From: an uncultured Blastocatellia bacterium | GTDB taxonomy: Bacteria; Acidobacteriota; Blastocatellia; Chloracidobacteriales; Chloracidobacteriaceae | Direction: 5' to 3' | Length of the DNA: 57,588 bases | Assembly: GCA_937934745.1 (NCBI GenBank) | Contig: CALGZC010000046.1 | Span: 1 to 57,588 of the forward strand | Part shown: positions 1,137-19,819 of the stretch, in pieces | Numbering within the stretch: position 1 is the stretch's first letter | How the letters are laid out: every line of letters begins with the position of its first letter | The notes under the pieces: generated by a model | Told to the model about the DNA's origin: nothing | The model's input: only the letters and a program-made list of their open reading frames with translations | Database searches by the model: none | Made by a program: the position numbers and the translations under genes

Positions 1137-2570
1137 ATGGCTTCTCCGGCAGTTCCACAGTTCAACGGCGTGCTTGGAAAAGTTTATGACTGGGTTGACG
1201 AGCGCGCCGGCATCAGCGAAATCCTCCACGAGTTGCTTGATGAACCGATTCCCGGCGGAACGAAGTACGCCTACGCTTTTGGCAGTGCCCTGCTGTTTAT
1301 TTTTGCACTGCAATCAATCACAGGCGTATTTCTGGCGATGTACTATGTGCCGAGTGCTGAAGATGCCCATAAGTCGGTCGAGTACATCATGAAAGAAGTG
1401 CCCTTTGGGGCTTTCATGCGTGGGATGCACCACTATGGCTCGAGCGCTATGGTCATTATGGTGGTGCTGCACATTTTGCAGATTGTTATCTGGGGCGCTT
1501 ACAAACAGAAGCGGGAATTGCTTTGGCTGGTTGGGGCTGGGCTACTCCAGTTGGTGCTTGCCTTTTCACTTTCGGGCTACCTTTTGCCGTGGGACATGAA
1601 GGCATACTACGGTACGGTAGTCACGGTTGGTATTGCCAGTGAAGTGCCGCTTGTCGGTGACATGATCAAGCGCATCATCATTGGCGGCACGGAAATGGGA
1701 ACCATTACCATCTCGCGCTTCTTCATGGTTCACGTTTTCTTGCTCCCGGCACTCATGGCAGGTGGGATTGCGGCGCACCTGTACCTGTTCCGCAAGGCGC
1801 GACCGGCCGGCCCGTTCAACATGACCGAACAGGAGGCCATGTTCAAGGTCGAGCCTTTCTGGCCCGGGCAGGTTTTCAAGGATGCCGTGTTCTCGTTGGT
1901 GGTCTTCGCCATTTTAGCCTACTTGTCGCTGACGACCCTTGCCCCACTGGAACCGAAGGCTGACCCGTCGCAAACACAGTATGTCGCCCGTCCAGAGTGG
2001 TATTTCCTGTTTCTCTTCCAGCTTTTGAAGTATTTCCCCGGCTCAACAGCCATTATTGGCTCCCTGGTGATTCCAGGACTGGTCATGGCGGTGATCACCT
2101 TCCTGCCTTTCTTGGACCGCAACCCAGAGCGGCATCCGCTCAAGCGTCCGTTTGTCATGTTAGGGACGCTGGCGCTTTTGGTGGCAATAGGCACGCTACA
2201 TTTGCTGGCCAAGCGTGATGACGCCCAAAACTTTGCCGAACAGCTCCGAGCGCAGGAAGAAGAAGGGACCCGCTTCCTGAAAGAGCCATTTGAGCCGAAA
2301 GACATCAGTCGGAAGTCCGTTGCGCCTGCCGCACCTGCGCCAGAAGCCTTTGTAAAGAACTGTGCTGTGTGTCATGGCGAGAACGGCGAAGGTGGCCCTG
2401 CCGGTCCGAAACTAATCGGGGTTGCTAAGAAGGAAAAGCGGAGCAAAGAAGAGATAGCCGGACTGATCGAGAATCCGGCTGCATACGGTGCGCCGAAGAT
2501 GCCGCCAATGCCGCAGGTGTCGGCAGCCGAACGCACTGCTATTGCCGATTGGATTCACACACTCAAGTAA
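1137..2570 (+). CDS. Cytochrome b (b6-type heme spacing) fused to a C-terminal cytochrome c domain
   Basis: This is the membrane quinol-oxidising subunit, 477 residues. Heme ligands are H98/H112 in helix B (14 apart) and H199/H214 in helix D (15 apart); the 15 spacing is the b6 type, whereas mitochondrial-type b has 14. The Qo motif PEWY is at about 286-289, so the b6-like half and the subunit IV-like half are one chain. After the last membrane helix comes an Ala/Pro linker and one CAVCH heme-c site near residue 410, with a Met-rich MPPMP stretch that could supply the axial Met. I chose the ATG at 1137 because GGAAAGG lies just upstream; a TTG at 1119 would add six residues. The partner is the Rieske gene upstream. 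Confidence 0.93.
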   Translation: MASPAVPQFNGVLGKVYDWVDERAGISEILHELLDEPIPGGTKYAYAFGSALLFIFALQSITGVFLAMYYVPSAEDAHKSVEYIMKEVPFGAFMRGMHHYGSSAMVIMVVLHILQIVIWGAYKQKRELLWLVGAGLLQLVLAFSLSGYLLPWDMKAYYGTVVTVGIASEVPLVGDMIKRIIIGGTEMGTITISRFFMVHVFLLPALMAGGIAAHLYLFRKARPAGPFNMTEQEAMFKVEPFWPGQVFKDAVFSLVVFAILAYLSLTTLAPLEPKADPSQTQYVARPEWYFLFLFQLLKYFPGSTAIIGSLVIPGLVMAVITFLPFLDRNPERHPLKRPFVMLGTLALLVAIGTLHLLAKRDDAQNFAEQLRAQEEEGTRFLKEPFEPKDISRKSVAPAAPAPEAFVKNCAVCHGENGEGGPAGPKLIGVAKKEKRSKEEIAGLIENPAAYGAPKMPPMPQVSAAERTAIADWIHTLK

Positions 2571-2595
2571 CTTGAGCACAACGGCCGCTGTTTGC

Positions 2596-2627
2596 CCGCG
2601 CCCGCCAAATGGCGGGCGCGGCCTTTT
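2596..2627 (+). terminator. Rho-independent terminator after the cytochrome b gene
   Basis: An 11-base-pair GC stem (2596-2606 with 2611-2621) closes on an AAAT loop and is followed by CCTTTT. It lies 25 bases after the cytochrome b stop and separates this operon from the hydroxylase gene. Confidence 0.8.
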
Positions 2628-2763
2628 GCGGGATTCTGCAGACGCACCGATGCGTATTGGTCGGGACGACTTTCACCAGGTGGCCGTTGGTTTGTCCATG
2701 CGCATTCGGTAGCATGGCTTTCGCGTCCCTCAGTCATATCCGTTCGTAGGGAGGAGAGCTGTG

Positions 2764-3615
2764 ATGCCTGCCGCCGTTGCCTTACAACCTCTGCCTAAAA
2801 AGCTCTCCACAGAAGTTGTTTTCAAAGCGAAGCCCTCGCTCCCACTGGCTCCGAGTCCGTCGCCGGAAGGCACCATTGGGCGTGACATTCAGCCGCCGAT
2901 TTATGCGCCGGTGCAGCATGAGACGTGGCGCAGACTCTACGACCGGCAGTCGGCCGCCATTGTCGGTCGGGTCTGTGATGAGTATCTCGAAGGGCGTGCC
3001 AAGCTTTGTTACGAACGCGAGCGCGTCCCACGGTTGGCCGACTTGAGTGAGCGTCTGCGCGCCTGCACCGGTTGGCAGTGTGTGCGGGTTGAAGGGTATG
3101 TCCCTGAAGCGACGTTTTTCCTCCTGCTGGCGCAGAAGTTGTTTCCCTGTACGGACTTTCTCCGGCATCCATCCGAGCTGGAATACACGCCTGCTCCAGA
3201 CATGTTCCACGACCTCATGGGTCACTTGCCGATGATTACCAACCCGCGTTTTGCATCGTTCTTCCACAAGTTTGGGTTGGCCGGCATCAATGCCCGCCGC
3301 GAAGAAGACACGGTCAAACTGGGGCGGATATACTGGTACACAGTCGAGTTTGGGCTAATTAATCCGACGGCGCATGCCGGTGCCGCGCGCGATCAGCGTC
3401 TGACGAAAATCTACGGAGCCGGCATTAGTTCATCGGTCGGGGAAATTGCCTACGCACTTTCAGACGCGGTTAAGAAGACGCCGTTTGACATCGAGCGCGT
3501 TGCTGCCACGCCCGTTGAAATTCACCACATGCAGGACGAGCTGTTTGAGATTGCGTCTTTTGATGAACTTGAGCAGTCCTTTGAGGCCTGGGCGACAGCG
3601 CAAAGCTTGATATAG
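2764..3615 (+). CDS. phhA: Biopterin-dependent aromatic amino acid hydroxylase (phenylalanine 4-monooxygenase type)
   Basis: It hydroxylates an aromatic amino acid, most likely phenylalanine to tyrosine, using O2, tetrahydropterin and non-heme iron. The 283-residue protein is the bacterial catalytic domain without the ACT regulatory domain of animal enzymes. The iron triad is H149 and H154 in FHDLMGH and E195 in YWYTVEFG; the KIYGAGISSS region matches the pterin/substrate part of the family. GGGAGGAG lies seven bases before the ATG at 2764; a GTG directly before it is too close to that site. A pteridine-reductase-like SDR follows 0.6 kb downstream and could regenerate or make the pterin cofactor (inference). 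Tryptophan hydroxylase activity cannot be excluded from sequence. Confidence 0.92.
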   Translation: MPAAVALQPLPKKLSTEVVFKAKPSLPLAPSPSPEGTIGRDIQPPIYAPVQHETWRRLYDRQSAAIVGRVCDEYLEGRAKLCYERERVPRLADLSERLRACTGWQCVRVEGYVPEATFFLLLAQKLFPCTDFLRHPSELEYTPAPDMFHDLMGHLPMITNPRFASFFHKFGLAGINARREEDTVKLGRIYWYTVEFGLINPTAHAGAARDQRLTKIYGAGISSSVGEIAYALSDAVKKTPFDIERVAATPVEIHHMQDELFEIASFDELEQSFEAWATAQSLI

Positions 3616-3910
3616 GTGCAGTGCCAGGCAAAAGAGGGTGTATCCGGCCGCGCTCCTTCGATGCGCCCAAAACTGGGCCGGGTGCTGACGGCGTGTTTGT
3701 GCGCCCAACGGACCGGCGCAGCGGGGTCGAGTGCTGCTCCGGCAGAAACGGGTTGTCACAGGCCCACTCCTGACCACCTGCATCTCGCAGCGCGGCTTGA
3801 CATTTTTGCCTGGCGCGGTGCCCGGTGGCCCTGGTTTCTCACAGGTCACAGGAATAGTCTCTCGGAACCGGTCACGGCAGTTGCTCACCTGTACGCTCTC
3901 ATTTAGACGC
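3616..3910. other. Intergenic region between the hydroxylase and a small membrane-protein gene
   Basis: Two overlapping short frames are open on the plus strand, but their products are low-complexity and resemble no protein. I see no clear terminator or promoter. Confidence 0.5.
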
Positions 3911-4108
3911 TCAGCGGGAGGATTGCCATCGGCCAAAGAGCCGTCCAAGTCCGTACAGTAACAACACAACACCCAAGCCCAGGTGAAAGGTCGGCGTGCG
4001 CGACGGTGCTACAGCCCACTCGACGACGTACCACGTCCCGATCAGCACAAAAAACAGAGGTAAGACCCACAGTATCGGCAGATGAGAGGGTTTTTTGTCC
4101 GGTGACAT
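3911..4108 (-). CDS. Small two-helix membrane protein
   Basis: A 65-residue protein with a short polar N-terminus, a hydrophobic helix at about residues 11-30, a polar turn, a second helix at about 40-57 and a basic end with RLFGRW. The layout fits a small inner-membrane protein with both ends in the cytoplasm. It stands alone on the minus strand between plus-strand genes, so it must have its own promoter. The ATG at 4108 is preferred over a TTG one codon earlier. I do not recognise the family. The sharp alternation of hydrophobic and basic parts supports a real gene. Confidence 0.6.
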   Translation of the reverse strand: MSPDKKPSHLPILWVLPLFFVLIGTWYVVEWAVAPSRTPTFHLGLGVVLLLYGLGRLFGRWQSSR

Positions 4109-4223
4109 CAACGAGACCTAGGGTAGGAGGAGGCCGTGGTCAATTGCTACCAACCGTACCATAGCCGACCTGGTTTGCCAAAATGAACTGCACTGCAAAC
4201 TCCACCGTGGGAGAGAAACTACC

Positions 4224-4946
4224 ATGCAACTGGCGGGCAGTATTGCATTGGTGACGGGCGGTGCGCGACGTTTGGGAGCTGCCATGGCGCAGGCTCTGGC
4301 GGCACAGGGTGTTCACCTTGCACTTCACTGTCATACGTCCCGGGAAGCAGCCGAGGCGCTGGCAGCTACACTGCGCCCTGCCGGCGTTACCGTCGAGGTG
4401 TTGCAAGCTGACCTACGCTACCCGGCCGAGGTCGATGCTCTCTTTGAAGCTATCGTCCACCGTCTTGGCGCGTTGCACATTCTCGTCAACAACGCTGCCG
4501 TCTTCGAACGTTGCCCAGTTTTGGCGCTCACCGATGCTGATTGGGAACAAACCCTCACGGTCAATCTCACCGCTCCTTTTTGGTGTGCGCGCCGCGCTGC
4601 TGCCCTTATGACAGCTCAGGGACGCGGCAAAATCGTCAATTTGGCCTGCGTCGGGGGAATCCGGCCGTGGACAGATTATGTCCACTACAACGTTTCTAAA
4701 GCCGGTCTCATCATGCTGACCGAAAGCCTGGCGAAAGCCCTTGCGCCGGTTGTTCAGGTCAATGCCATTGCACCGGGCAAAGTTGATTTCACGGCGACCG
4801 GTCAGGGTGTGACACCGGATGCCATCACCCAGGCACTCTTGTACTTGCTGAGTGCCGATGCTGTAACCGGCGAAACAATTTTTGTGGACGCCGGTTATCG
4901 GCTCGGCCTCGCATCTGATCGGATGACGCTGCAAACGAAGACGTGA
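4224..4946 (+). CDS. SDR-family reductase, pteridine reductase-like
   Basis: This 240-residue NAD(P)H-dependent reductase has a Rossmann fold. The cofactor loop reads TGGARRLG, the TGxxxRxG form typical of pteridine reductases (PTR1/FolM) rather than the usual TGxxxGIG. NNAAVF follows, and YNVSK carries the catalytic Tyr and Lys. The usual catalytic Ser position reads IVNLACVGG, without Ser, as is common in PTR1-type enzymes. The likely role is reduction of dihydropterin or dihydrofolate. The nearby pterin-dependent hydroxylase fits this. A 3-oxoacyl-ACP reductase-like role is the main alternative. The start is supported by GGGAGAG about ten bases upstream. Confidence 0.75.
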   Translation: MQLAGSIALVTGGARRLGAAMAQALAAQGVHLALHCHTSREAAEALAATLRPAGVTVEVLQADLRYPAEVDALFEAIVHRLGALHILVNNAAVFERCPVLALTDADWEQTLTVNLTAPFWCARRAAALMTAQGRGKIVNLACVGGIRPWTDYVHYNVSKAGLIMLTESLAKALAPVVQVNAIAPGKVDFTATGQGVTPDAITQALLYLLSADAVTGETIFVDAGYRLGLASDRMTLQTKT

Positions 4947-5004
4947 TATGCTCCGGCAACTTCGTGTAAAGGATTTGATTTTTCAACGTAACAGTGAGAA
5001 AACA

Positions 5005-7152
5005 ATGAAGTTGTTTGCTATTGCCCTCGTGCTCTGTGCCACACTGGCCGGCCATTTGGCGCCGGTGTGCAGCGCTGCCTCTGAGACGCCGCCGTTGTTG
5101 ACTTCCGTACTGGTCGAACAAGCCGAATGGCGGGTGACAGGTCCCTTTGGCGGGACGGTACGCGCACTGGCGCAAGACCCGACAAATCCCAAACGCATGT
5201 TCATCGGTACGGCCGACGGTCAAATCTACGTGACAACCGACGGTGCGCAGACCTGGCGGTGGTTGCCGAGCTTTAATCGCCCACAGTACATCATTGAAAG
5301 CATTGTTGTTGACCCAACAGCAACCGATACGCTGTACGCCGCCGTTTGGATGCTCGAAAACGATCGCGAAGGCGGGGTGTATAAATCCACAGATGGTGGG
5401 GTGACGTGGCGCAATATTCTCAGGCAGGAGTCGGTGCGCGCCTTCGCCATGGCACCGAGTAACGCCAGCGTGCTTGTCGCCGGGACGCTCTCCGGGGCCT
5501 TTCGCTCCACAGATGGGGGCGAAACCTGGGCGCGCTTGTCACCGGCCGGTCACAAGGGGATTCGCAACATCGAATCCGTGGCGATTGATCCTCGGAGTCC
5601 TGACATCGTGTACGTTGGCACCTGGTATCTCCCTTGGAAAACCACGGATGGCGGCCAGAACTGGACGTTTATTCACGGCGAAACTTCCAAACTGATCGAG
5701 GACTCCGACATTTTTAGCATCGCCATTGACGCCTTCAATCCCGAACAGGTCTATTGCAGCGCCTGTAGCGGCATTTACCGCAGCCTGGACGGCGGCCGCA
5801 ACTGGACGAAATTCAAAGGTATCCCATCAAGTGCGCGCCGAACACACGTCATTTTCCCGCACCCGACGCGCGAGAAGGAAATCTTTGCCGGGACAACCGC
5901 GGGGTTGTGGTGGACGGCCGACGGTGGCGAGAGCTGGCAGCAGTTGCTGCCCTCGACAACTACCATCAATGAAATCCGCATTCATCCCTCTGCGCCGAAT
6001 CGTGTAATTGTCGGGACTGAAAATCGCGGCGTCCTGATCAGCGAAGACGGTGGTGCGACGTTTCAACCGTATAACACCGGTTTTGTCACGCGGCGCATCT
6101 CCGGATTGCTAGCCGATAGCACGCAGCGGGGGCGCATCTTTGCCACGGTAATGTTCAACGGTGCAGAAGGCGGCGTCTATGTCTCCAACGACATGGGACA
6201 GACCTGGCAACCGACAGCTCAGGGAATGGGTGCGCGCGACGTGTATGGGTTGTGCACGCAGACTAACAACCCAGGCCGCTTCTATGCGGCTACCAACGAC
6301 GGTGTGTTTTTCACGGACAACGGCGGCCGACTCTGGCAGCCGGCCAATCCGCCTGCAAACTGGAAGCCCACACCGGTTGCCCCGGGCGGCCGGCTGGCTG
6401 CCGCAGCGCCTTCTACATCCCGTCCACGCCCGTCCGGTAAGGGGCGCCTGGCAGCACGGGCATCTCGCCGGATGATCCTCCGGCAGCGATTGAAGGGTCA
6501 TGTTGTCGAGCTGACTTCGACTGGCGATGGATGGCTCTACGCCGCCGCCTGGGATGGTCTGTTCCGAACGGACAATCCAGCCAAAGGCTGGGAAAAACTC
6601 AACCTTGGTGCATACCGGGGACGGGTTTTTTCTGTCGCTGTGTCACCGCACAACCCGGAGGTGATTCTGGCCGGCATTTCCGACGGCCTGCTGATGAGTC
6701 GCGATGGTGGGGCAACTTGGGAGCGGGCCGGCCTCCCCGTGCAGAGTACAAAGGACACCACTTGCGTACAGGAAATCGCCATCCATCCACATCAGCCGGG
6801 AACCATACTCGTCGGTACGCGCCGCACAGCCTACGTGAGCTACAATGGTGGGCAGACGTGGGCGCGGCTGGGGCGCGGCATTGGTTTCGGCGATATTGCC
6901 GTGATTCGATTCAATCCACGCAACGCCGACGAAGTCCTCATCGGTGATGCGCAGGGCGGCGGCCTGTACCTTTCGGTCAACGGGGGACAACTGTTCCACC
7001 GCCTGGACCGGCGCGCTGAACTACCGGGCCATCGGATGTGGGCTGCGGCATTCGATCCCTTCACAACCGGACGGATGTATGCCGGCTCGGTCACATCAGG
7101 GGTCATGATTGTCACCCTCCCGGTGACAACCATGACGGCTGCGAACCCATAA
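5005..7152 (+). CDS. Secreted Asp-box (BNR/sortilin-like) beta-propeller protein
   Basis: The 715-residue product starts with a Lys-containing signal peptide ending near the Ala-rich CSAA. The rest consists of about a dozen Asp-box repeats of the S/T-x-DGG-x-TW type, for example STDGGETW, TTDGGQNW, SLDGGRNW, TADGGESW and SRDGGATW. This matches sortilin/VPS10- or Ycf48-like propellers. About residues 440-480 form a basic, Pro/Arg-rich insert that interrupts the blades. No catalytic residues of sialidases are evident, so a binding or assembly-factor role outside the cytoplasmic membrane is more likely than hydrolysis. I chose the ATG at 5005 because the signal peptide begins there. mutM starts five bases after the stop, suggesting cotranscription. 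Confidence 0.8.
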   Translation: MKLFAIALVLCATLAGHLAPVCSAASETPPLLTSVLVEQAEWRVTGPFGGTVRALAQDPTNPKRMFIGTADGQIYVTTDGAQTWRWLPSFNRPQYIIESIVVDPTATDTLYAAVWMLENDREGGVYKSTDGGVTWRNILRQESVRAFAMAPSNASVLVAGTLSGAFRSTDGGETWARLSPAGHKGIRNIESVAIDPRSPDIVYVGTWYLPWKTTDGGQNWTFIHGETSKLIEDSDIFSIAIDAFNPEQVYCSACSGIYRSLDGGRNWTKFKGIPSSARRTHVIFPHPTREKEIFAGTTAGLWWTADGGESWQQLLPSTTTINEIRIHPSAPNRVIVGTENRGVLISEDGGATFQPYNTGFVTRRISGLLADSTQRGRIFATVMFNGAEGGVYVSNDMGQTWQPTAQGMGARDVYGLCTQTNNPGRFYAATNDGVFFTDNGGRLWQPANPPANWKPTPVAPGGRLAAAAPSTSRPRPSGKGRLAARASRRMILRQRLKGHVVELTSTGDGWLYAAAWDGLFRTDNPAKGWEKLNLGAYRGRVFSVAVSPHNPEVILAGISDGLLMSRDGGATWERAGLPVQSTKDTTCVQEIAIHPHQPGTILVGTRRTAYVSYNGGQTWARLGRGIGFGDIAVIRFNPRNADEVLIGDAQGGGLYLSVNGGQLFHRLDRRAELPGHRMWAAAFDPFTTGRMYAGSVTSGVMIVTLPVTTMTAANP

Positions 7153-7157
7153 CTGTC

Positions 7158-8024
7158 ATGCCAGAGTTGCCGGAAGTGGAAGGCGTGGCGCGCGCCCTGC
7201 AGCCACGCCTCTGTGGGCGCCGGATTCTCACAGTGCAGATCACCCGTCCGCGGCTCGTTGCACCGCAGACGGCAGCTGCGTTTGCCGCCGGTGTCGAGGG
7301 TGCAACGTTCACCGATGTTGGGCGACGGGGTAAGTATTTGCTGCTGCACCTCGATAATGCCTACACGTTGCTTGTTCACCTGCGAATGGCAGGGCGCTTC
7401 CTGTATGTCATGCCTTGTGACCCGTTACCCAAATTCGTCCATGCCATCTTCGATCTTGACAACGACCGGCGGCTTGCGTTTCAGGACCAACGCCACTTTG
7501 CCGTCATGCGGCTCGTCCGAACGGACGAACTCAACCAACTCAAAGAACTGCGCAACTTGGCTCCCGAGCCGCTCGGGCCGGCGTTTACACCTGCTTATTT
7601 GCAGCAGGTCCTGGCAGCCACACGGCGTCCTGTCAAGGAGGTATTGCTCGACCAGCGCTGTGTCGCCGGATTGGGGAACATCTATGCGGCGGAGGCACTG
7701 TTTGCTGTCGGTGTGAACCCAAAAACACGGGCAAACAACATTCCGAAGGCGAAGGTCAAGCGTTTGTGGGCAGTGATTCGGATGCTCCTAGAATCGGCCA
7801 TCGAGGCCGGCAGCACGATTGATGTCAACCCGGAAAGCATTGCCGGGCAATACTTTGGCGCAGCTTATGCAGAGGCGCTGCTGGTGTACGACCGGGAAGG
7901 TAAGCCATGTGTCCGTTGTGAGACGCCGATTGTCCGCATTCGGCAGGGGCAACGCTCGACATACTTTTGTCCGCAGTGCCAACCACAACGGCACGCTAGA
8001 TCGGGGCGACAGTCCGGTCGCTGA
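7158..8024 (+). CDS. mutM: Formamidopyrimidine-DNA glycosylase
   Basis: It removes 8-oxoguanine and ring-opened purines from DNA and cuts the abasic site. The 288-residue product begins MPELPEVE, so after Met removal Pro is the Schiff-base nucleophile and Glu the general acid. The conserved Lys lies in RRGKYLL near residue 58. VAGLGNIYA is the helix-two-turn-helix DNA contact. The C-terminal zinc finger is complete (CVRC...CPQC). The start is fixed by the MPELPE motif, although no good ribosome binding site is visible, so translation may be coupled to the upstream propeller gene five bases away. Confidence 0.96.
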   Translation: MPELPEVEGVARALQPRLCGRRILTVQITRPRLVAPQTAAAFAAGVEGATFTDVGRRGKYLLLHLDNAYTLLVHLRMAGRFLYVMPCDPLPKFVHAIFDLDNDRRLAFQDQRHFAVMRLVRTDELNQLKELRNLAPEPLGPAFTPAYLQQVLAATRRPVKEVLLDQRCVAGLGNIYAAEALFAVGVNPKTRANNIPKAKVKRLWAVIRMLLESAIEAGSTIDVNPESIAGQYFGAAYAEALLVYDREGKPCVRCETPIVRIRQGQRSTYFCPQCQPQRHARSGRQSGR

Positions 8025-8177
8025 TATGCTATCTTTACGCATAACACATAACGTGCCGTTTCGTTTATCGCCCCCTGCGTAGCTTGGAGCGTGTTTGCGT
8101 GCGCCGATGAGTGATGAGATTGAAACGCCAGAGATAGGCCAGAGATAGTTTCCAGACTGACAATAAGGTGCTTCGCT

Positions 8178-9833
8178 ATGGATCAGCATGCTGCTCACGG
8201 GGCGTGGGGAACGCTCAGGTATCGGGACTTAGGCGGAAAAGAGGTTGTCCTGACACTGAACAAGCCAGTTTTTCGTATCGGTCGCCTGTCTGACAATGAT
8301 TTGCAAATAGACGACCCCTACGTTTCACGCCTGCATGCCGAACTACGGTTCGACGGCACCTATGCCATGCTGATCGACCGCAGCAGCACCGGGGCGACAT
8401 ACGTCAATGACCAGCGTGTGCCGGAAGTGCGGCTGCACAGCGGCGACCGAATCGCCCTAGGGCGCAAGCTTGCCGGTACAGAAATGACATTTGAATACGT
8501 TGACCAGGAAGTTGCCGCGAATGCCGGCGAGGCACACCAGGTCATGTCGGTCATTGACCATTCACAGACACGTTATCTCAACACGTCGCTAATCCGCGCT
8601 GCGCAGTTGAGTAATGCCGTGATGGTCAACCGACTCAAGGCCCTGTATGAAATTACCAGCGCCATTTTGACCGTGACGACACGTGAGGAACTGGCCGAAA
8701 AACTGCTCACGCTCCTGTTTGACGTGCTTCCGGCCGAACGGGGTGTGATTTTGTTGGCCGATCCGAAGAACAACACACTACGGCAGCAAGCGGCGCGCAT
8801 GCGGAACGGCGACGCTGCACAGGTGTCGCCCAGCCAGACCATTGTACGCCGTGTTTATGAGGGCAATGTCGCTGAGTTGTGCCTTGATGCCCGCAACGAT
8901 GCCCGCTTTGCCGGCCAGCAAAGCATTATTTTTCAATCCATTCGGTCGGTGATGTGCGCTCCCATCAGTTCTTCTGCCCGAGTATGGGGCGTATGCTACC
9001 TCGATAACCTGACGACGAAGAAAACCTTTGAGAACGAAGAGTTGGAATTTCTGATGGCCGTTTCACGGCAGGCCGGTCTGGCGCTGGAAAATATCTATCT
9101 GCTGGAAGAGCAGAAAATCACCTTCCAGAGTTTTGTGACGACACTCGCGGCCTCGATCGACGCCCGCGACGATCTGACTGCTGGTCACTCGGCACGGGTA
9201 GCGCGCTACTCGCGTGCGATTGCCAAGTACATGAACTTGCCAGAGGCTGAGCGCCGCCGAATCTACTACGCAGGTCTGCTGCACGACTATGGCAAGATTG
9301 GAACGCGCGAGTCCATCCTCTGCAAGCCCGGCAAGCTCACACCGGAAGAGTACGCCCACATGCGCGACCATGCCAAAAATACCTACGACATTCTCTCTAA
9401 GATTCACTTCACGCGGGATATGCAGGACTTGCCGCTGGTCGCCGCCGGACATCACGAGAATCTGGACGGCAGCGGTTATCCGTTTGGGTTGAAGGGAGAT
9501 GAAATCCCGCTGGGCGCACGCATTATTGCCGTGGCCGATTTCTTTGATGCCCTGACACACAAGCGGCACTACCGCGAGCCGATGCCAATTGAGGAAGTTC
9601 TCGAACTCATTGATGAGAGCACGGGGACGAAGTTTGACCCGCAGGTTGTTGCCGCACTGAAGCAGTTTGTCCGGCAGGAATTCATCCCTAATCAGCGCCA
9701 GCGTGCCGAAGCTGAAGCGCGGCGGGTTCAATCTGCCCAACTGGTCAGCGGAGCCTCTGAAGGCGAAACCACCATCCCGGTTGCACCACAAGCCGCTCCA
9801 CAAACGGTTTCAATGGATCCGGTCGTTCTGTGA
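8178..9833 (+). CDS. FHA-GAF-HD-GYP protein, probable cyclic di-GMP phosphodiesterase
   Basis: The 551-residue cytoplasmic regulator has an FHA domain at about residues 15-105 (IGRLSDND, SRLHAEL and STGATYVN contact phosphothreonine), a GAF domain at about 155-310 and an HD-GYP domain at about 315-490. The HD metal site is in LLHDYGKIG, followed by HHENLDGSGYP, the intact GYP motif, so it is probably active on c-di-GMP. The FHA domain suggests it is recruited by a Ser/Thr-phosphorylated partner, and a kinase gene of that class lies at 35608. AAGGTG upstream supports the ATG. The tail after about 490 is disordered and its end overlaps the convergent TPR-like gene by 24 bases. Confidence 0.93.
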   Translation: MDQHAAHGAWGTLRYRDLGGKEVVLTLNKPVFRIGRLSDNDLQIDDPYVSRLHAELRFDGTYAMLIDRSSTGATYVNDQRVPEVRLHSGDRIALGRKLAGTEMTFEYVDQEVAANAGEAHQVMSVIDHSQTRYLNTSLIRAAQLSNAVMVNRLKALYEITSAILTVTTREELAEKLLTLLFDVLPAERGVILLADPKNNTLRQQAARMRNGDAAQVSPSQTIVRRVYEGNVAELCLDARNDARFAGQQSIIFQSIRSVMCAPISSSARVWGVCYLDNLTTKKTFENEELEFLMAVSRQAGLALENIYLLEEQKITFQSFVTTLAASIDARDDLTAGHSARVARYSRAIAKYMNLPEAERRRIYYAGLLHDYGKIGTRESILCKPGKLTPEEYAHMRDHAKNTYDILSKIHFTRDMQDLPLVAAGHHENLDGSGYPFGLKGDEIPLGARIIAVADFFDALTHKRHYREPMPIEEVLELIDESTGTKFDPQVVAALKQFVRQEFIPNQRQRAEAEARRVQSAQLVSGASEGETTIPVAPQAAPQTVSMDPVVL

Positions 9834-13614: not shown

Positions 13615-14778
13615 CTAGGCAGCAGCCAGGGCAACCACTTTCTCCGCCGCGTCTTTCATCCCGTCGGTCGTTGTAAAGTTCAGCCCGGAAGCTTCCAGCA
13701 AGGCGCGCCCCTGCTCAACATTTGTCCCTTCTAGGCGGACAACAATCGGCAAGGTGACGTTGAGGTTGCGCGCGGCAGCAATGACACCCGCTGCCACCAT
13801 ATCACACCGGACAATGCCCCCAAAAATATTGATGAGCACCGCCCGTACGTTGGGGTCGGCCAGTAAGATGCGAAAGGCCCTTTCAACCCGCTCCTGTGAT
13901 GCTCCCCCGCCGACATCAAGGAAGTTCGCCGGGTTGCCGCCGGACAGCTTAATGATGTCCATAGTGGCCATAGCCAACCCTGCGCCGTTGACCATACAGC
14001 CGATGTTGCCGTCGAGTTTGACGTAGTTGAGGTCGTACTTTGCGGCTTCGGTTTCTAGGGGTTCTTCTTCGCGGGTGTCGCGTAACTCAACATAGTCAGG
14101 GTGCCGGTACAGGGCGTTGTCGTCGAGTGTCACCTTTGCATCCAGGGCATAGAAGTCACCCTCTTTAGTGAGCAGAAACGGATTGATTTCAATCAATGAC
14201 GCATCACTCTCAACAAACGCCCGGTAAAGCGCCAGGAGAATTTTTACAACTGTTGCCGCCTGTCCGCCGGTAAACCCCAACCCGAAGGCAACTTTTCGCG
14301 CTTGGTAAGGTTGTAAGCCGAGTACTGGATCGATCACTTCGCGCAAAATTTTTTCCGGTGCGGCGGCGGCGACTTCCTCAATCTCCATGCCCCCTGCCTG
14401 GCTGGCCATGAGCACCGGCGAAGAGGTACTGCGGTCAATCAAGAAGCTGAGATATAGCTCGCGGTCAATGTGCAGCCCTTCTTCGACAATGAGCCGGTGG
14501 ACCGTCCGTCCTTCGGGACCAGTTTGGGGTGTCACCAGCTTGTGACCCAGCATGCGGAGGGCAATGGATTCGACTTCTTCCAGAGAGTGGGCTAGCTTGA
14601 CACCGCCACCTTTCCCACGTCCACCGGCATGGATCTGCGCTTTTAAGACAACCGGGAAAGTTCCCAGAGCCTCTGCCGCCATGCAGGCATCTAGAGGATT
14701 GAGTGCAACATGGTGACGTGGAATAGGGACGCCGTACTTTGCCAGCAGGCGCTTCGCTTGATACTCGTGGATTTTCAT
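13615..14778 (-). CDS. sucC: Succinyl-CoA ligase (ADP-forming), beta subunit
   Basis: This is a TCA-cycle enzyme that makes ATP or GTP from succinyl-CoA together with the SucD alpha subunit. The 387-residue product has the N-terminal [17 protein letters not shown], an ATP-grasp fold with [12 protein letters not shown] at the nucleotide site, the metal-binding EINPF and DAK region, and NGAGLAM...GGGA in the C-terminal CoA-ligase domain, followed by NIFGGI. The ATG at 14778 has AGGA nine bases upstream; a GTG two codons earlier is possible. No sucD is adjacent, which is unusual since the two genes are normally paired. It starts 11 bases after a HAMP sensor gene. Confidence 0.95.
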
Positions 14779-14789
14779 AGTCACAGTTC

Positions 14790-16049
14790 CTAGCGGCGAC
14801 TGCGCAAGCGCTCGATCGCCTGCTTCAAACTGATCCGCATCCGTTCAAGCGATTCTCCCAGTTCGCCGATTTCATCGCCGGTGTTGACCGCGATTGGTTC
14901 ATCCAACTCACCTAAGCTGATGCGGTTGGCTGCTTCGGTCAGTTTCAAAATAGGTTGTGTCAGGCGTTGCGCCAAAACAAATGCTACGACACCCCCGACC
15001 ACCAGCGAGATGCCGGTGACAATGAGAATAATGATGAGCGTCGTATTGAGAACCTGACTGAAGTAGCTTTCACGGACGCCAACCCCAACATACCCGATAA
15101 TGGTGACATCATCCGGGGCCTTGACCGGCGCGAAAGCAGTTTTGTAACTGCTACCCAACAGTGTGTTACTGACGGCCGTCGGTTTGTCAGCCGCCAACTC
15201 GCTCTGCAGGGCAGTGCCCAAAACCCGCGGGTCGCTCGAGGAGATGACCTTTCTATCCTTTGCCAAGATGAACGCCACAGCAACGTCTTGTAGGTCGCGG
15301 TACAGCGTTTGTTTGACTTCCCGTGTGAGCGCTGTCAGCGGACGGTTTTCATCTTGCGGGGCATTGTTGATCAGCTGTCCGGTGAGAACGTACCCAAGAA
15401 CTCGGTTCCCGAATACCACGGGTGCAATGGCCTCAAGGGTCAGGCCCACCGGCGATGTCACCTGCCGGTTGAACTGTTCCGCAAGTCCGAAGCTTTTGAG
15501 CAAGTCAGGAGTTTCATTGACGGCACCGGCCAGTTGAGCGCGCAGCAGAGCATCAGGTTGGTTGCTTTCGACAGCGTTCTTAGACTTGATAAACAGCGGA
15601 TTGTCGCCAAAAGAGGCTTCACCGCTCCCCGCGCTGCGCACTAGTACTTGTCCCCGGGTATTGAGGACGGCAATAAAATCCACACCGGAAGATTCAACCC
15701 GCTGTTTGACCAGTTGAATAAGTTTTTGCTGCCACCCGGCCTGACTCTGCTGGGCAACCTGCGTTGGATTACCGGAGGCGCTCGAGGCGCCGGTCGGCGT
15801 CGCGGCCGAATCGATCAGATTTTCCGAGGCGACGGTCTGCGCCGTGGACTGCGCAATCTCCCGCAAGGTCTGCTGCCGTGAACGGAAAATGCGCTCTGCT
15901 AAGCGGGCATCCTTTTCAACGTCACGCCGAGCATTAGCATCAATCGTCCCGCTGACGATGACGACGAAAGCCAGCGCCGACAAGGCCAATGGCGCAGAAA
16001 TCAACAGCGCCGCAAAAATGGCAAGTTTGTTTCGGATGTTGAGTTTCAT
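14790..16049 (-). CDS. Membrane sensor with extracytoplasmic ligand domain and terminal HAMP, no output domain
   Basis: The 419-residue protein has helix 1 at about residues 10-34, an extracytoplasmic domain of about 300 residues with Cache-like segments ([37 protein letters not shown]), helix 2 at about 340-362, and a HAMP domain ([25 protein letters not shown]...[13 protein letters not shown]). It ends about 20 residues after HAMP, with no kinase, methyl-accepting or cyclase domain, so it must signal through a partner. It lies downstream of four DUF4388/roadblock genes and 11 bases before sucC. The bases just before the ATG read TTTCCTCCTTGAC, an anti-Shine-Dalgarno-like rather than Shine-Dalgarno sequence. 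Confidence 0.8.
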
Positions 16050-16198
16050 GTCAAGGAGGAAAGTAAAAAGAGAGCCAGTCCGTCACACCGTGCGTCTTCG
16101 TGATCACTCCTGTGCAAGCATTGCTTGCCATAGGCACTGTGGGCAGGGCAGGATCACGTGGCAAGGCTGACCGGAGCATCGCATGGCTAGGCTCAAAC

Positions 16199-17008
16199 TT
16201 ATGCATAGAGGTGCTGCATGATCTGCAGCATCGCTTCCTGGAACTTGACCCGCCGCTCATTATCTGGGATCTCTTCGGCTAAACGCTCTGCCAGCGATGG
16301 CATCATATCCTTGGGCAGTTGCTGAAGCTTGAAGCCCAGTGATTCAGCACAGTCCTCAAGAACAATTGGAGCCATCGGGCCAATGGCGCGCATCAGCTCA
16401 CGTTCGGTTTGATGCAGAATATCCTCCGACACAGCATCAACTACCGAATCTTCCTCCTGACGCTCCCCGACATACTCAACCAGCCCGAGATCATACAGTC
16501 GGACGATGACCTTTGAAGCCATCAGTTCATTGAGCTGTGTAATATCTCCAATCTCGCCGACCGTCTGCACGCCATCCAAGTTTTGAATGACCGACCAGTC
16601 TTCAGCACGCAAGGAGAACTCTTTCATCGAGCGCGAAGAGAGCCGGAAGACCGCACGGGCAGAGGGGACAACACGCCGCACACTCTCCCACTCGGTTGCA
16701 TATGTAACGCATTCCAACAGAATCTCTTCTGTTTGGAGGTAAGTCGTCCGCTCGTCGGTGGGGCTGTCGTCGGTCGCCGTGAAGCTAAACTTGCCGTTGC
16801 CCCAGGAAAAAAGGCCATAAACGGCGTCTTCCCCGATGAGGTCCTCGTACACGGCGTGTATAATTTGCCCGTTGTCGAAGTACACCTCACCTTGCCGTCC
16901 ATCATCATGAACCAACTCCAAAACGCCAGTACGGTTGCTGGCGTGCAGTAGACGAAGAACATCCATGAGCTTGAGCTGCGCCAGATTGCCACTGAATGCA
17001 TTGGACAT
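16199..17008 (-). CDS. DUF4388 (PATAN-type) signalling protein
   Basis: The 269-residue cytoplasmic protein has an N-terminal DUF4388 domain: the first about 90 residues read FSGNLAQLKLMDVLRLLHAS...GVLELV...GEVYFDNGQIIHAVYEDLIGEDAVYGLFSW, as in PatA-like response-regulator N-termini. The middle resembles a winged-helix-like region (WSVIQNLDGVQTVGEI...LYDLGLVEYV), and the acidic C-terminal helix bundle carries the rest. There is no receiver domain. The ATG at 17008 is preferred; another Met lies three codons upstream. It is downstream of the roadblock gene. Function is unproven: in the family, DUF4388 is seen in motility, type IV pilus and GTPase-linked regulators. Confidence 0.75.
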   Translation of the reverse strand: MSNAFSGNLAQLKLMDVLRLLHASNRTGVLELVHDDGRQGEVYFDNGQIIHAVYEDLIGEDAVYGLFSWGNGKFSFTATDDSPTDERTTYLQTEEILLECVTYATEWESVRRVVPSARAVFRLSSRSMKEFSLRAEDWSVIQNLDGVQTVGEIGDITQLNELMASKVIVRLYDLGLVEYVGERQEEDSVVDAVSEDILHQTERELMRAIGPMAPIVLEDCAESLGFKLQQLPKDMMPSLAERLAEEIPDNERRVKFQEAMLQIMQHLYA

Positions 17009-17112
17009 AGCGTGCATCCCCAGGGCTAAGAAAATGATTTGACAAGTGCAGTGGAGAGTCCGACCAGTCGTCGTTACCCAACCGCTGCTGACCAACCGCA
17101 CGCAACCCGTAG

Positions 17113-17625
17113 CTACTGAGCGCGATTCATGGCTTCCAGTAACTCCCAACTCGTTGCATCAAGTCGGTCGCGTGTGAGGAGACTCTGACGCAAAACGCTC
17201 ACACTCACCCGCAAGCCAGCTACGGCACGGTCCTTTTTCAGCTTATCGGCCGCCACCTTAACGGTCATGCGCATCGTAGGCAGGTTTGCAGCAGGTGTAC
17301 TGACGAGGATGAGGAAGACTTCCTCCGTACCATAGGCGGTCTTGATCATCAAGTCAAGATTGGTGAAAGTCGTAATGCGCCCGTCGGCAAACACCATCGA
17401 GATTTCTTCAACTTTGTTGTATTGCAGCTCAGCCACAGCAGAAAGCTGCGCCAAAAGTACCCCCAGTTGCACGGTTGCCTGGGAGTTGAGCGCAAACTGC
17501 CCGGCACTCAGCAGCACTTCGCCCCGATTGTTGACCAGCAAGGCGCTTTTGATGCCCGCCATGCGCATCAGGTCCTGCAGAAACGTCTCATAGGCTCTCA
17601 AGATTTCGTCTTTGGCTTTTGACAT
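17113..17625 (-). CDS. Roadblock/LC7-domain protein (MglB-like)
   Basis: The 170-residue protein consists mostly of one roadblock/LC7 fold: LQDLMRMAGIKSALLVNNRGEVLLSAG, then a helix (LGVLLAQLSAVAELQYNKVEEI), the strand VFADGRITTFTNL and an ILV strand. Bacterial MglB proteins of this fold are GTPase-activating partners of the Ras-like MglA. No MglA-like gene is in the window. AAGGAG five to six bases before the ATG at 17625 fixes the start. It sits between two DUF4388 genes on the same strand. Confidence 0.8.
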   Translation of the reverse strand: MSKAKDEILRAYETFLQDLMRMAGIKSALLVNNRGEVLLSAGQFALNSQATVQLGVLLAQLSAVAELQYNKVEEISMVFADGRITTFTNLDLMIKTAYGTEEVFLILVSTPAANLPTMRMTVKVAADKLKKDRAVAGLRVSVSVLRQSLLTRDRLDATSWELLEAMNRAQ

Positions 17626-17676
17626 AGCGGCTCCTTGGAACATCAACGCCTTGCCAGGATCGGTGGCGGCTACGAG

Positions 17677-18930
17677 CTACCCGGCCGAGAATGCCAAGAT
17701 TTCATTCATAGCAATCTCCAACCCATAGCGCTCAAACTCCGCATAGCGCCGCTGGCACAACGACCGCAACGCTTCCTCTACATGACGGCGGAGGTGGTTT
17801 TCGGGGGAGCGCCGATCAAGATCGGCTACGGTCAAACGCAACGCCTGAGACAAACCAACGACGAAATCCGCCGGACGCGCCTTGCCGCGAAAGGTCGCGA
17901 CACCACCGGCATACTCAAACTCAGCAGCAAACGGGTCGAGGAACGGATAGTGCGTTGCCATGTGAATCAGGGCTTCGCGGAACGAAGGTAAGAAGAAATC
18001 AGTGCGCCGGAGCGCATCGGCAACGCTGACTTCAATAGCCCGGACAATTTCCCCCATCAAACTGACCAGTTCTGCGTATTGTTCACGGGTCAGCGGGCGA
18101 ATACTTTCATCCTCTTCCAGTTCAAGCGGCGAGTCATCATCGCCGTCGCCCACAAGGGCTGTGTCCACCACTGGCGTTTCCGGCAGCAGTGACGACACTT
18201 GGGGAGCGCGAATGGTCGGTGGCGCTTCTTCAACGAGTAGTGGTTCACTCCTGGCTGCTGCTGCCGGTCCAACCGGGGTAGCCTCTGTGCGCGGAACGGG
18301 CGGAGGTTTGAGTGTCGCCAGCGACGACGGTGCAGCCGCAGCGCCCCGATAAACATTGAAGACGGCTCCGCCAGTCACCCGTTCGTAAAGGAGTTTCAGG
18401 CCCTCCGCGCCGAACGCCGTTTGATGTGGCTCAACGCTGGATGATGTCACCGACACCACGGCCTCGGCGCGATGATCGAGAATGTAAATAATGCCGCCGC
18501 CTTGTTCCTGCTCAAACGACACCTCGACGTACCAGGTACCACCGGTTTTGGTGAGCTTCTCGACTAACTTATCCAGGTTAGTGAAGTCGGAAGACAGGTT
18601 GCGGTGGACAGCCTCACCGGTGATGACACCGGTAATCGCCTGAATGACCTCTTCGGGATGCTGAAAAAAGCCGACTTTTCCGTTGCGTGCCTGCGCGCGT
18701 GACAGTAACCCTTCGAGCGCCTCGCGTTCGCGCTGGATACCATTTTCGGTGACTTCGTAGGCATTGACTATCTGCCCACGCGACAGAAAGACATATCCGG
18801 TGTAGCCCCAGAACTCAACGCTGACGTAGCCCGTAAACTCGTTGACCTGCAAATCGGCCAGCAAGGCAGCGACATTGACATAGGACGTGCTCAGATTCTC
18901 ATGAACCGGCTTTCCACGTGGAACAATCAT
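17677..18930 (-). CDS. DUF4388-like protein with long acidic linker and C-terminal helical domain
   Basis: The 417-residue protein has an N-terminal region of about 90 residues with the DUF4388 pattern (ALLADLQVNEFTGYVSVE...GYVFLSRGQIVNAYEV), then a second alpha/beta segment (FTNLDKLVEKLTKTGGTWYVEVSF). A Pro/Ala/Ser/Asp-rich linker runs at about 220-280, and the C-terminal helical domain contains EQYAELVSLMGEIVRAIEVS. The ATG at 18930 is chosen; a GTG at 18960 would add ten residues. The roadblock gene follows 51 bases past its stop. I do not recognise the C-terminal domain. Confidence 0.65.
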   Translation of the reverse strand: MIVPRGKPVHENLSTSYVNVAALLADLQVNEFTGYVSVEFWGYTGYVFLSRGQIVNAYEVTENGIQREREALEGLLSRAQARNGKVGFFQHPEEVIQAITGVITGEAVHRNLSSDFTNLDKLVEKLTKTGGTWYVEVSFEQEQGGGIIYILDHRAEAVVSVTSSSVEPHQTAFGAEGLKLLYERVTGGAVFNVYRGAAAAPSSLATLKPPPVPRTEATPVGPAAAARSEPLLVEEAPPTIRAPQVSSLLPETPVVDTALVGDGDDDSPLELEEDESIRPLTREQYAELVSLMGEIVRAIEVSVADALRRTDFFLPSFREALIHMATHYPFLDPFAAEFEYAGGVATFRGKARPADFVVGLSQALRLTVADLDRRSPENHLRRHVEEALRSLCQRRYAEFERYGLEIAMNEILAFSAG

Positions 18931-18976
18931 GGTCGGTGTCCACCCAGCCCTAGCAGCCACGCGGGCTGAGACGGCG

Positions 18977-19819
18977 TCACATCGTCAGCGGTCCGGCATA
19001 CGGGCCGGGCGGCGTCAGGGCCGCGCTGCCGCCCAACAGTCCGGTTGAACCGCTGTCCGTCGCACCGTTGATTCGTGCCTGCATTTTCCGAAAGATGCGG
19101 TCAATGTGCGGACTCATGGTTTCAAACCGAACGGCGGCGCTAAACTCAATGAGCGCCAGGTAGTTTTCAAGGTCAAAGACCATCACTTTTTTCGGCCCGG
19201 CGCTGATCGTCATCCGCGATAAAGATCCAACGCGCGCTGGCACAGTGATGAGGCGGCCGAGATAAACCAGCAGCGCCACCATCATTCCGAGTTTTTCCGC
19301 CGACTTCACCTTGCTCACTGCCTGTACCGTCCCGTCGCGCGACACAGCAAGCGCCGCATCAACCCCCTTGACCTTTGTTAGGTCGTTGACCAATGACTGA
19401 TAGATGTTGATGACGCGCGCTGCGCCGCTGGTTGTCGGTGTCCGGAGAGGCGCTGTCGCCGGCGTTGCAGCAGTGCCCTCACTACTTTCACCGCCCTCAC
19501 CACGTCCGGCACGCGCTTCGTCTAGTAAGCGCAGACCCTCCATGATGAGATTTGCCCACGGCTCAAAAATCGTTCGGGTCGGGGCAGGAATGCCGGTGTC
19601 AATCCGAAAGGCGCCCTGGTCATACTCAAGCGCCTTGTAAACGGCTTCCACACCGACCAGGTTCCCAAGACGCGCATCAACGACTTCACCGTCGGCAAAA
19701 TAGAAGACCCCATCACCAATTGGGTAGTGAACTGTGAGTCGCGCAGTGTTGCGTCCGACACAGTTGATTTGGATGATATCTACCAGTGCGAGGTCAGTCA
19801 GATCGCCAACGAGCGGCAT
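18977..19819 (-). CDS. DUF4388-roadblock/LC7 fusion protein
   Basis: The 280-residue protein fuses an N-terminal DUF4388 domain (PLVGDLTDLALVDIIQIN...GVFYFADGEVVDARLGNLVGVEAVYKAL) through an Ala/Thr/Gly-rich linker at about 125-150 to a C-terminal roadblock fold (YQSLVNDLTKVKGVDAALAVSRDG...VMVFDLENYLALIEF). GGAAGG four to five bases before the ATG at 19819 fixes the start. It is the first gene of the DUF4388/LC7 cluster. The fusion is direct evidence that the separate DUF4388 and LC7 genes downstream work together. Confidence 0.8.
   Translation of the reverse strand: MPLVGDLTDLALVDIIQINCVGRNTARLTVHYPIGDGVFYFADGEVVDARLGNLVGVEAVYKALEYDQGAFRIDTGIPAPTRTIFEPWANLIMEGLRLLDEARAGRGEGGESSEGTAATPATAPLRTPTTSGAARVINIYQSLVNDLTKVKGVDAALAVSRDGTVQAVSKVKSAEKLGMMVALLVYLGRLITVPARVGSLSRMTISAGPKKVMVFDLENYLALIEFSAAVRFETMSPHIDRIFRKMQARINGATDSGSTGLLGGSAALTPPGPYAGPLTM

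Follow-up and report, generated by a model that had tools for sequence, protein, structure and literature searches.

Membrane receptors that end at their HAMP domain are described, in an account of the Archaeoglobus protein Af1502, as being without a recognizable effector module (PMC4834066). A way in which such receptors could pass on their signal is suggested by a cassette of five minus-strand genes, here designated A to E, all present between positions 14790 and 19819 of a 57,588 nucleotide (nt) sequence from an uncultured Blastocatellia bacterium (GenBank assembly GCA_937934745.1; contig CALGZC010000046.1), the whole of which is referred to as the window. The original prediction made for this region was of four minus-strand genes for DUF4388 and roadblock/LC7 (LC7) proteins followed by a HAMP sensor lacking an output domain, together read as a GTPase switch with the GTPase missing. 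Gene calls, Pfam matches and a conserved gene order bore out the arrangement but not the broken switch, and the cassette is probably a split transmembrane receptor in which a STAC-like subunit relays the signal to a scaffold of PATAN and roadblock proteins. DUF4388 is taken here to be the PATAN domain, and the host is presumably a photosynthetic acidobacterium.

Gene E (coordinates 14790 to 16049) encodes a membrane receptor in which Pfam identified a Cache-type sensor (sCache_3_2, 44.8 bits; ~15042 to 15950) and a HAMP domain (57.8 bits; 14823 to 14978). HAMP is the only cytosolic domain, located at residues 358–409 of 419 with 1 residue beyond the modelled tail, and the protein ends in a conserved RMRxSLKxA tail. 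When a profile of the HAMP region was compared with Protein Data Bank (PDB) sequences, AF1503 (4gn0) was the best match (E 1.4e-14) and 9wxr the first of other origin (E 4.1e-9), with the entries between them taken, in part by name or alignment, to be Af1503 or its chimeras; Af1503 is over-represented among HAMP structures, and the comparison was run with the HAMP of E alone.

The adjoining gene D (coordinates 16199 to 17008) encodes a PATAN domain (DUF4388, 81.1 bits; 16685 to 16993), a winged-helix-like region (~16454 to 16645) and a C-terminal domain (16199 to 16450) for which Pfam and NCBIfam scans returned no sensible family. A profile of the last 80 residues found AF1502, a STAC protein, as the best of 177,635 PDB sequences (E 0.019; next 0.25), in a match that spans 27 residues around a GP motif, and so is short and not significant by usual standards. 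With longer D profiles, the AF1502 chain was found at E 0.46 and 0.24, under winged-helix matches. The GP motif is present in 17 of 17 aligned rows, in 15 of them as GPxA and in L044 and L045 as GPMG, and the residue before it is Ile, Val or Glu, compared with the Leu of the LGPx(x)A motif of STAC. The possibility that other PATAN proteins of the same genome carry this domain was rejected, as only D itself matched in the frames of the loci searched (next E 4.4).

Af1502, a STAC protein containing the LGPx(x)A motif, is reported to show translational coupling with Af1503, a receptor in which nothing but HAMP is cytosolic (PMC4834066). As D leads to AF1502 and E to AF1503, two adjoining genes in the window point to two adjoining genes in Archaeoglobus, each of the matches being modest when taken alone and the relationship a putative one. 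Both systems place a receptor with only HAMP in the cytosol beside a gene for a GPxA-motif domain, and both the E HAMP and the D C-terminus find their best PDB match in the Archaeoglobus pair. However, the cassette belongs to a bacterium, its STAC-like domain is part of a protein that also has PATAN and a winged helix, and genes for further PATAN and LC7 proteins accompany the pair.

Were the STAC-like domain the partner of HAMP-only receptors, any STAC-like gene found beyond the cassette would be expected to adjoin such a receptor as well. The D C-terminal profile was therefore followed through 297 Acidobacteriota genomes, and matches were found in 20, comprising 16 cassette places and six further genes (E 1.1e-10 to 0.006). 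A HAMP-terminated receptor was found near four of the six (L135, L137, L138 and L140). In L135, a PATAN-winged helix-STAC protein is encoded near a receptor ending at HAMP, whereas in L138 (coordinates 3124 to 5519) a Ser/Thr kinase ending in two STAC-like stretches is beside a HAMP-terminated receptor with a Tll0287-like sensor. L140 (coordinates 4136 to 8393) also encodes a HAMP-terminated receptor with a Tll0287-like sensor, and a Ser/Thr kinase with one significant and one weak STAC-like stretch. In L136, the STAC-like stretch belongs to a protein with receiver-like and PATAN-like parts, both of which gave Pfam matches just under the cut-off. The genome with the L135 pair (coordinates 5577 to 7304; G007:C218:48076-49803) carries the cassette too, and has this combination of a PATAN-winged helix-STAC protein and a HAMP-only receptor twice.

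The L137 locus (minus strand, coordinates 4984 to 8922; G200:C23) encodes a Ser/Thr kinase, an LC7-STAC fusion, a small LC7 protein (23.7 bits against a cut-off of 23), a protein weakly matched to Cache and a HAMP-only receptor. The LC7 part of the fusion was related to C (hhalign E 9.7e-7; hmmsearch E 1.4e-4), linking LC7 to STAC, and together with A and D such fusions tie the parts of the cassette to one another. On sequence comparison, the L137 cluster may be a relative of the cassette in which a kinase provides the output. No MglA or MglB was found by phmmer in L135 to L140. The C-terminus of the L137 kinase was considered as a further LC7 domain and rejected because the similarity was not significant.

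The pairing was also examined from the side of the receptors. Among 44 HAMP matches in six genomes, six end 0–1 residues after the modelled tail and 38 continue for at least 90 residues. A STAC-like gene was present in the ~3 kb stretch for five of the six HAMP-terminated receptors, and for the sixth (L143) it was ~1 kb off and seen in the longer L137 stretch, whereas none of the 38 HAMP proteins with outputs has a STAC-like gene in its stretch, and none is on a contig to which the genome-wide search assigned one. The strict tail motif was found in four of the six and in none of the 38, the remaining two being near matches by eye. The difference between 6/6 and 0/38 (Fisher's test, 1.4e-7) comes from a biased survey, as each of the six genomes was picked because it has either the cassette or a STAC-like match, and the cassette was the source of both profiles used.

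This bias weighs against a split receptor, as do the brevity of the AF1502 match and the over-representation of Af1503 among HAMP structures. Three of the six extra STAC-like genes are weak matches (2.3e-4 to 0.006), and L136 and L139, both from genome G175, have no HAMP-terminated receptor nearby, none of the seven HAMP matches in G175 ending at HAMP. The receptor and partner genes of L140 are convergent, and in L137 two genes separate the receptor from its STAC partner, while the LC7-STAC protein has no Pfam domain.

In the mechanism proposed for the cassette, the Cache-type domain of E would sense something outside the inner membrane, and this signal would change the conformation of the HAMP dimer. 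Given that HAMP is the whole cytosolic part of E, its conserved tail is proposed to dock the STAC-like C-terminal domain of D, which could relay the change to its own winged-helix and PATAN regions. We infer that PATAN and LC7 contacts then spread the signal from D to a scaffold composed of the PATAN-LC7 protein A, the B protein with its two PATAN-like domains and the LC7 protein C, in which the LC7 proteins would be dimerising scaffolds and not MglB-type GTPase-activating proteins (GAPs), and that the output acts on something encoded elsewhere. Signalling from the HAMP sensor to the DUF4388/LC7 proteins had been suggested earlier, and the STAC-like end of D and its recurrent pairing with HAMP-terminated receptors lend this independent support.

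More tentatively, with the balance of probability slightly against it, HAMP-terminated receptors and STAC-like effectors may represent a general class of bacterial split receptors in which sensors (Cache or Tll0287-like) and outputs (PATAN-winged helix, roadblock/LC7 or Ser/Thr kinase) can be exchanged, and which in Acidobacteriota has built a GTPase-free roadblock signalling complex. As the candidate partner domain is fused to recognisable outputs, the coupling is testable on just the HAMP tail and the STAC-like domain, both of them small. A coupling role for STAC, between a membrane part and an output, has also been proposed for the CbrA-type SLC5-STAC-histidine kinase transceptors (PMC13022988), but the cassette contains neither transporter nor kinase, and its receptor and STAC-like domain are separate proteins.

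The cassette was found to be a conserved unit. All 22 other Acidobacteriota loci that were read have the gene order A-(B)-C-D-E, except at contig ends and for three losses of B. A search with C found it in 15 of 58 genomes including the host, made up of 7/7 of the genus, 3/3 others of the family, 4/4 others of the order and 1/44 others of the class. C, D and E are in order in all 14 loci of these relatives. No A was detected in L039, L043 or L047, and L046 has only a 42-residue fragment of it; no B was detected in L039 or L047, and L043 has only part of it. All of these cases are at contig ends. B is absent though A and C are present in L048, L081 and L084. A C profile search of the 297 genomes found C in 16, and in eight loci from other classes A, C, D and E are in the same order in 8/8, with B in 6/8. 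Conservation of gene order, which had been put forward as a check on the cluster, thus excludes chance clustering. A wider search with a larger C profile gave 18 of 396 genomes, one of which (G077) is a weak hit.

A scan of named genomes with A found nine loci, assigned to Chloracidobacterium (2), Blastocatellia bacterium (5), Acidobacteria bacterium (1) and Actinomycetota bacterium (1), the last having Acidobacteria in its scaffold name; as the scan used only two narrow peptide patterns, it says little on other phyla. A tblastn search of plasmids with D and A gave no matches, and no report of the cassette was found in literature searches, which mostly lacked coverage of subscription papers.

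The intergenic gaps from A to E in the window are 46, 51, 104 and 149 nt, and the corresponding gaps are -1, 9, 23 and 24 nt in L077 and 4, 23, 15 and 17 nt in L083, as expected of an operon. Scans for promoters and terminators were uninformative. The sucC gene (succinate-CoA ligase beta by NCBIfam; minus strand, coordinates 13615 to 14778) is 11 nt downstream of E, and was found beside the cassette in 9/9 genus and family loci but 0/5 order and class loci, and was therefore rejected as a cassette member, being a neighbour within the family only. Apart from one generic frame that the window has too, a block of neighbours is confined to L077, L080, L082 and L083. The flanks thus vary between most lineages, and the cassette forms a unit independent of them.

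The domain descriptions given originally for the DUF4388-LC7 fusion (A) and the LC7 protein (C) stand, whereas those of B and D needed correction, D also having the winged-helix-like and C-terminal regions described above. Gene A (coordinates 18977 to 19819) encodes PATAN (DUF4388, 67.5 bits, above the cut-off; 19514 to 19807) fused to a roadblock/LC7 domain (Robl_LC7, 18.9 bits, under the 23-bit cut-off; 19154 to 19396). Its tail (18977 to 19060) is Gly/Pro-rich with TGPL-like motifs in the class, which are absent from other classes, and could be a docking motif. Gene B (coordinates 17677 to 18930), described before as a DUF4388-like protein with a helical domain, encodes two tandem PATAN-like domains (~18316 to 18930), a disordered linker and a C-terminal helical domain (~17695 to 18087). 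The Pfam DUF4388 match of B (21 bits) was under the 25-bit cut-off, but its halves matched each other (hhalign E 3e-15), and half 1 matched the D PATAN (hhalign E 8e-6) while half 2 did not significantly. The AlphaFold model of B had a predicted local distance difference test score (pLDDT) of 79.2 and a predicted template modelling score (pTM) of 0.48, and found no PDB fold match at E ≤ 1e-3.

The stand-alone protein encoded by gene C (coordinates 17113 to 17625) had a Robl_LC7 match of only 16.8 bits, under the Pfam cut-off, and the family was matched at E ≤ 0.1 by 10/23 C and 5/15 A family members. However, the AlphaFold prediction for C from 23 sequences reached a pLDDT of 88.5. Foldseek placed LAMTOR2 first for this model, then other roadblock and MglB chains, and VIA-align placed Myxococcus xanthus MglB (6izw_C) first (Z 15.4; root mean square deviation 2.0 over 120 residues), with several roadblocks, including another MglB and an Asgard roadblock, within about 1 of the top Z. 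The roadblock/LC7 fold of C, weak by sequence, is thus confidently predicted and agrees with the LC7 fold first proposed here. In single hhalign comparisons, the C profile was closer to the LC7 domain of A (E 7.9e-7) than to MglB (E 2e-5), and the match of the A domain to the MglB profile was not significant (E 0.067), which counts against the proposed receptor and scaffold.

MglB residues Asn37 and Arg98 are reported to be essential for GAP activity, and its C-terminal helix to be the part active as a guanine nucleotide exchange factor (GEF) (PMC11016934). Both residues and the helix are kept in 22/22 MglBs coupled to MglA in cassette genomes. In register by hhalign, C has Arg at the Asn37 position in 22/23 and Glu at the Arg98 position in 20/23, and in a register taken from the non-significant hhalign match and by eye, A has Asp or Glu in 15/15 and Arg in 0/15, respectively. 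The motif of the GEF helix (acidic-IDxLF), present at the end of 22/22 MglBs, was found in 0/23 C and 0/15 A. By these features C and A are not MglB-type GAPs, and to judge from their sequences they look like scaffold roadblocks and not half of a broken switch. Roadblocks without the GAP signature that are kept in a conserved cassette would separate a scaffold role from GTPase regulation.

LC7 proteins commonly regulate Ras-like GTPases, and those of the cassette might act as GAPs on some GTPase besides MglA whose gene is elsewhere; a second Arf-family match is present in the genome (contig C11; E 0.0011, under the family cut-off). This appears very unlikely given the residues found at the Asn37 and Arg98 positions in C and A. 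The GTPase search near the loci was aimed at MglA-like GTPases only.

The absence of MglA from the cluster, noted at the outset, was confirmed, as phmmer searches with the MglA and MglB of the host (E ≤ 1e-3) found neither in the window nor in 13 representatives of the 22 relative loci. However, the GTPase is not missing from the genome. MglB and MglA are side by side on contig C8 of the host, this MglB matching that of M. xanthus at E 8.5e-51, and an MglA match was also found in each of the other 22 cassette genomes, thus loss of the GTPase from the genome was rejected. In 21 of the 22, a stand-alone MglA, 74–99% identical, adjoins MglB, and in G130 (82% complete) only a 47% identical MglA-like domain in a 765-residue frame was found. 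Together with the lack of MglB GAP and GEF features in the cassette LC7 domains, this leaves a switch with its GTPase missing unsupported in its original wording.

These MglA and MglB genes raise the question of whether the cassette is instead a distant arm of the MglA switch, in which C and A would be orphan roadblocks that bind MglB or MglA encoded in trans, like Myxococcus MglC, and set polarity or pilus activity under E. The orphan roadblock MglC is reported to bind MglB (PMC7949163, PMC10329633), PATAN genes are described as occurring near MglA and MglB genes (PMC4316618), and M. xanthus MglB is the protein that tops the VIA-align list for C. We nevertheless consider this arrangement unlikely, because C and A are without the GAP residues and C-terminal helix, MglA is common in genomes without the cassette, G130 has the cassette yet no stand-alone MglA was found in its 82% complete sequence, and the LC7 proteins of L137 sit with a Ser/Thr kinase and no MglA. 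The cassette resembles the MglA-MglB/MglC systems of Myxococcus and Thermus in the predicted LC7 fold of C, but differs in the lack of a linked MglA and of these MglB features.

For a split receptor with a roadblock scaffold, the most likely target in trans is the machinery of type IV pili, the MglA-MglB pair located elsewhere in the genome, or both, although we hold this with considerable doubt. The cyanobacterial PATAN regulator PixE has been hypothesised to bind the pilus motor PilB1 (PMC7690835), and this hypothesis and the PATAN genes near MglA and MglB favour pili or MglA as the output. PilT was found above the curated cut-off in 23/23 cassette genomes and 6/12 class members without the cassette. 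MglA was found in 207 of the 297 Acidobacteriota genomes, including all 16 cassette genomes of the sample (G130 among them), for which a random draw gives a probability of 0.0026; as the genomes are related this co-occurrence is only suggestive, and with MglA in so many genomes it is weak evidence. Chloracidobacterium validum is reported to be piliated but non-motile (PMC12816986), which counts against the proposed output, and attachment is thus as likely as movement. PATAN would act as an adapter in the cassette as in the cyanobacterial response regulators PixE, PixG and LsiR, but unlike these the cassette proteins have no receiver domain, and the signal is proposed to arrive via HAMP and STAC.

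The main alternative for the output is transcription via the D winged helix. D would then be a membrane-tethered or released DNA-binding protein, with its release controlled by the PATAN and LC7 parts. HTH_27 was matched in 9/17 D members and MarR_2 in 4/17 (best E 2.4e-6), and MarR proteins lead the list of PDB matches to the whole-D profile (best E 0.00099). However, winged helices also bind proteins, and DUF742, which we take to be the family of the conservon protein CvnC, was weakly matched in 4/17 D members (best E 0.042), MarR_2 being the stronger match. A CvnC homologue is reported to act likely as a GEF (PMC13343842), and a transcriptional output is considered improbable. Like the conservons, which are actinobacterial G protein systems, the cassette brings together a HAMP membrane sensor, an LC7 protein and a partner with a winged-helix-like region, all in a single cluster, but E ends at HAMP without a histidine kinase, there is no linked MglA-like GTPase, and the similarity to DUF742 is marginal.

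The 3.3 Mb host genome contains 16 DUF4388 matches, and those scanned (L003, L005, L011, L012, L014, L016 and L018) are fused to receiver, TPR, FHA, cNMP-binding or DnaJ domains. The receiver-PATAN protein of L014 was considered to have an LC7 tail, but this was rejected as the similarity was not significant. A second MglA-like GTPase forms the N-terminus of a frame of ~750–790 residues, followed by what by eye are a GAF-like region and a histidine kinase ATPase; this GTPase-kinase fusion, in the same lineages as the cassette, is present in L113 (coordinates 1498 to 3567; G120:C153), with matches also in G085, G097, G072, G109 and G130. MglA matches with one in-frame TAG were found in G059, G087, G186, G193, G207, G214 and G269, possibly representing alignment past the stop codon or read-through.

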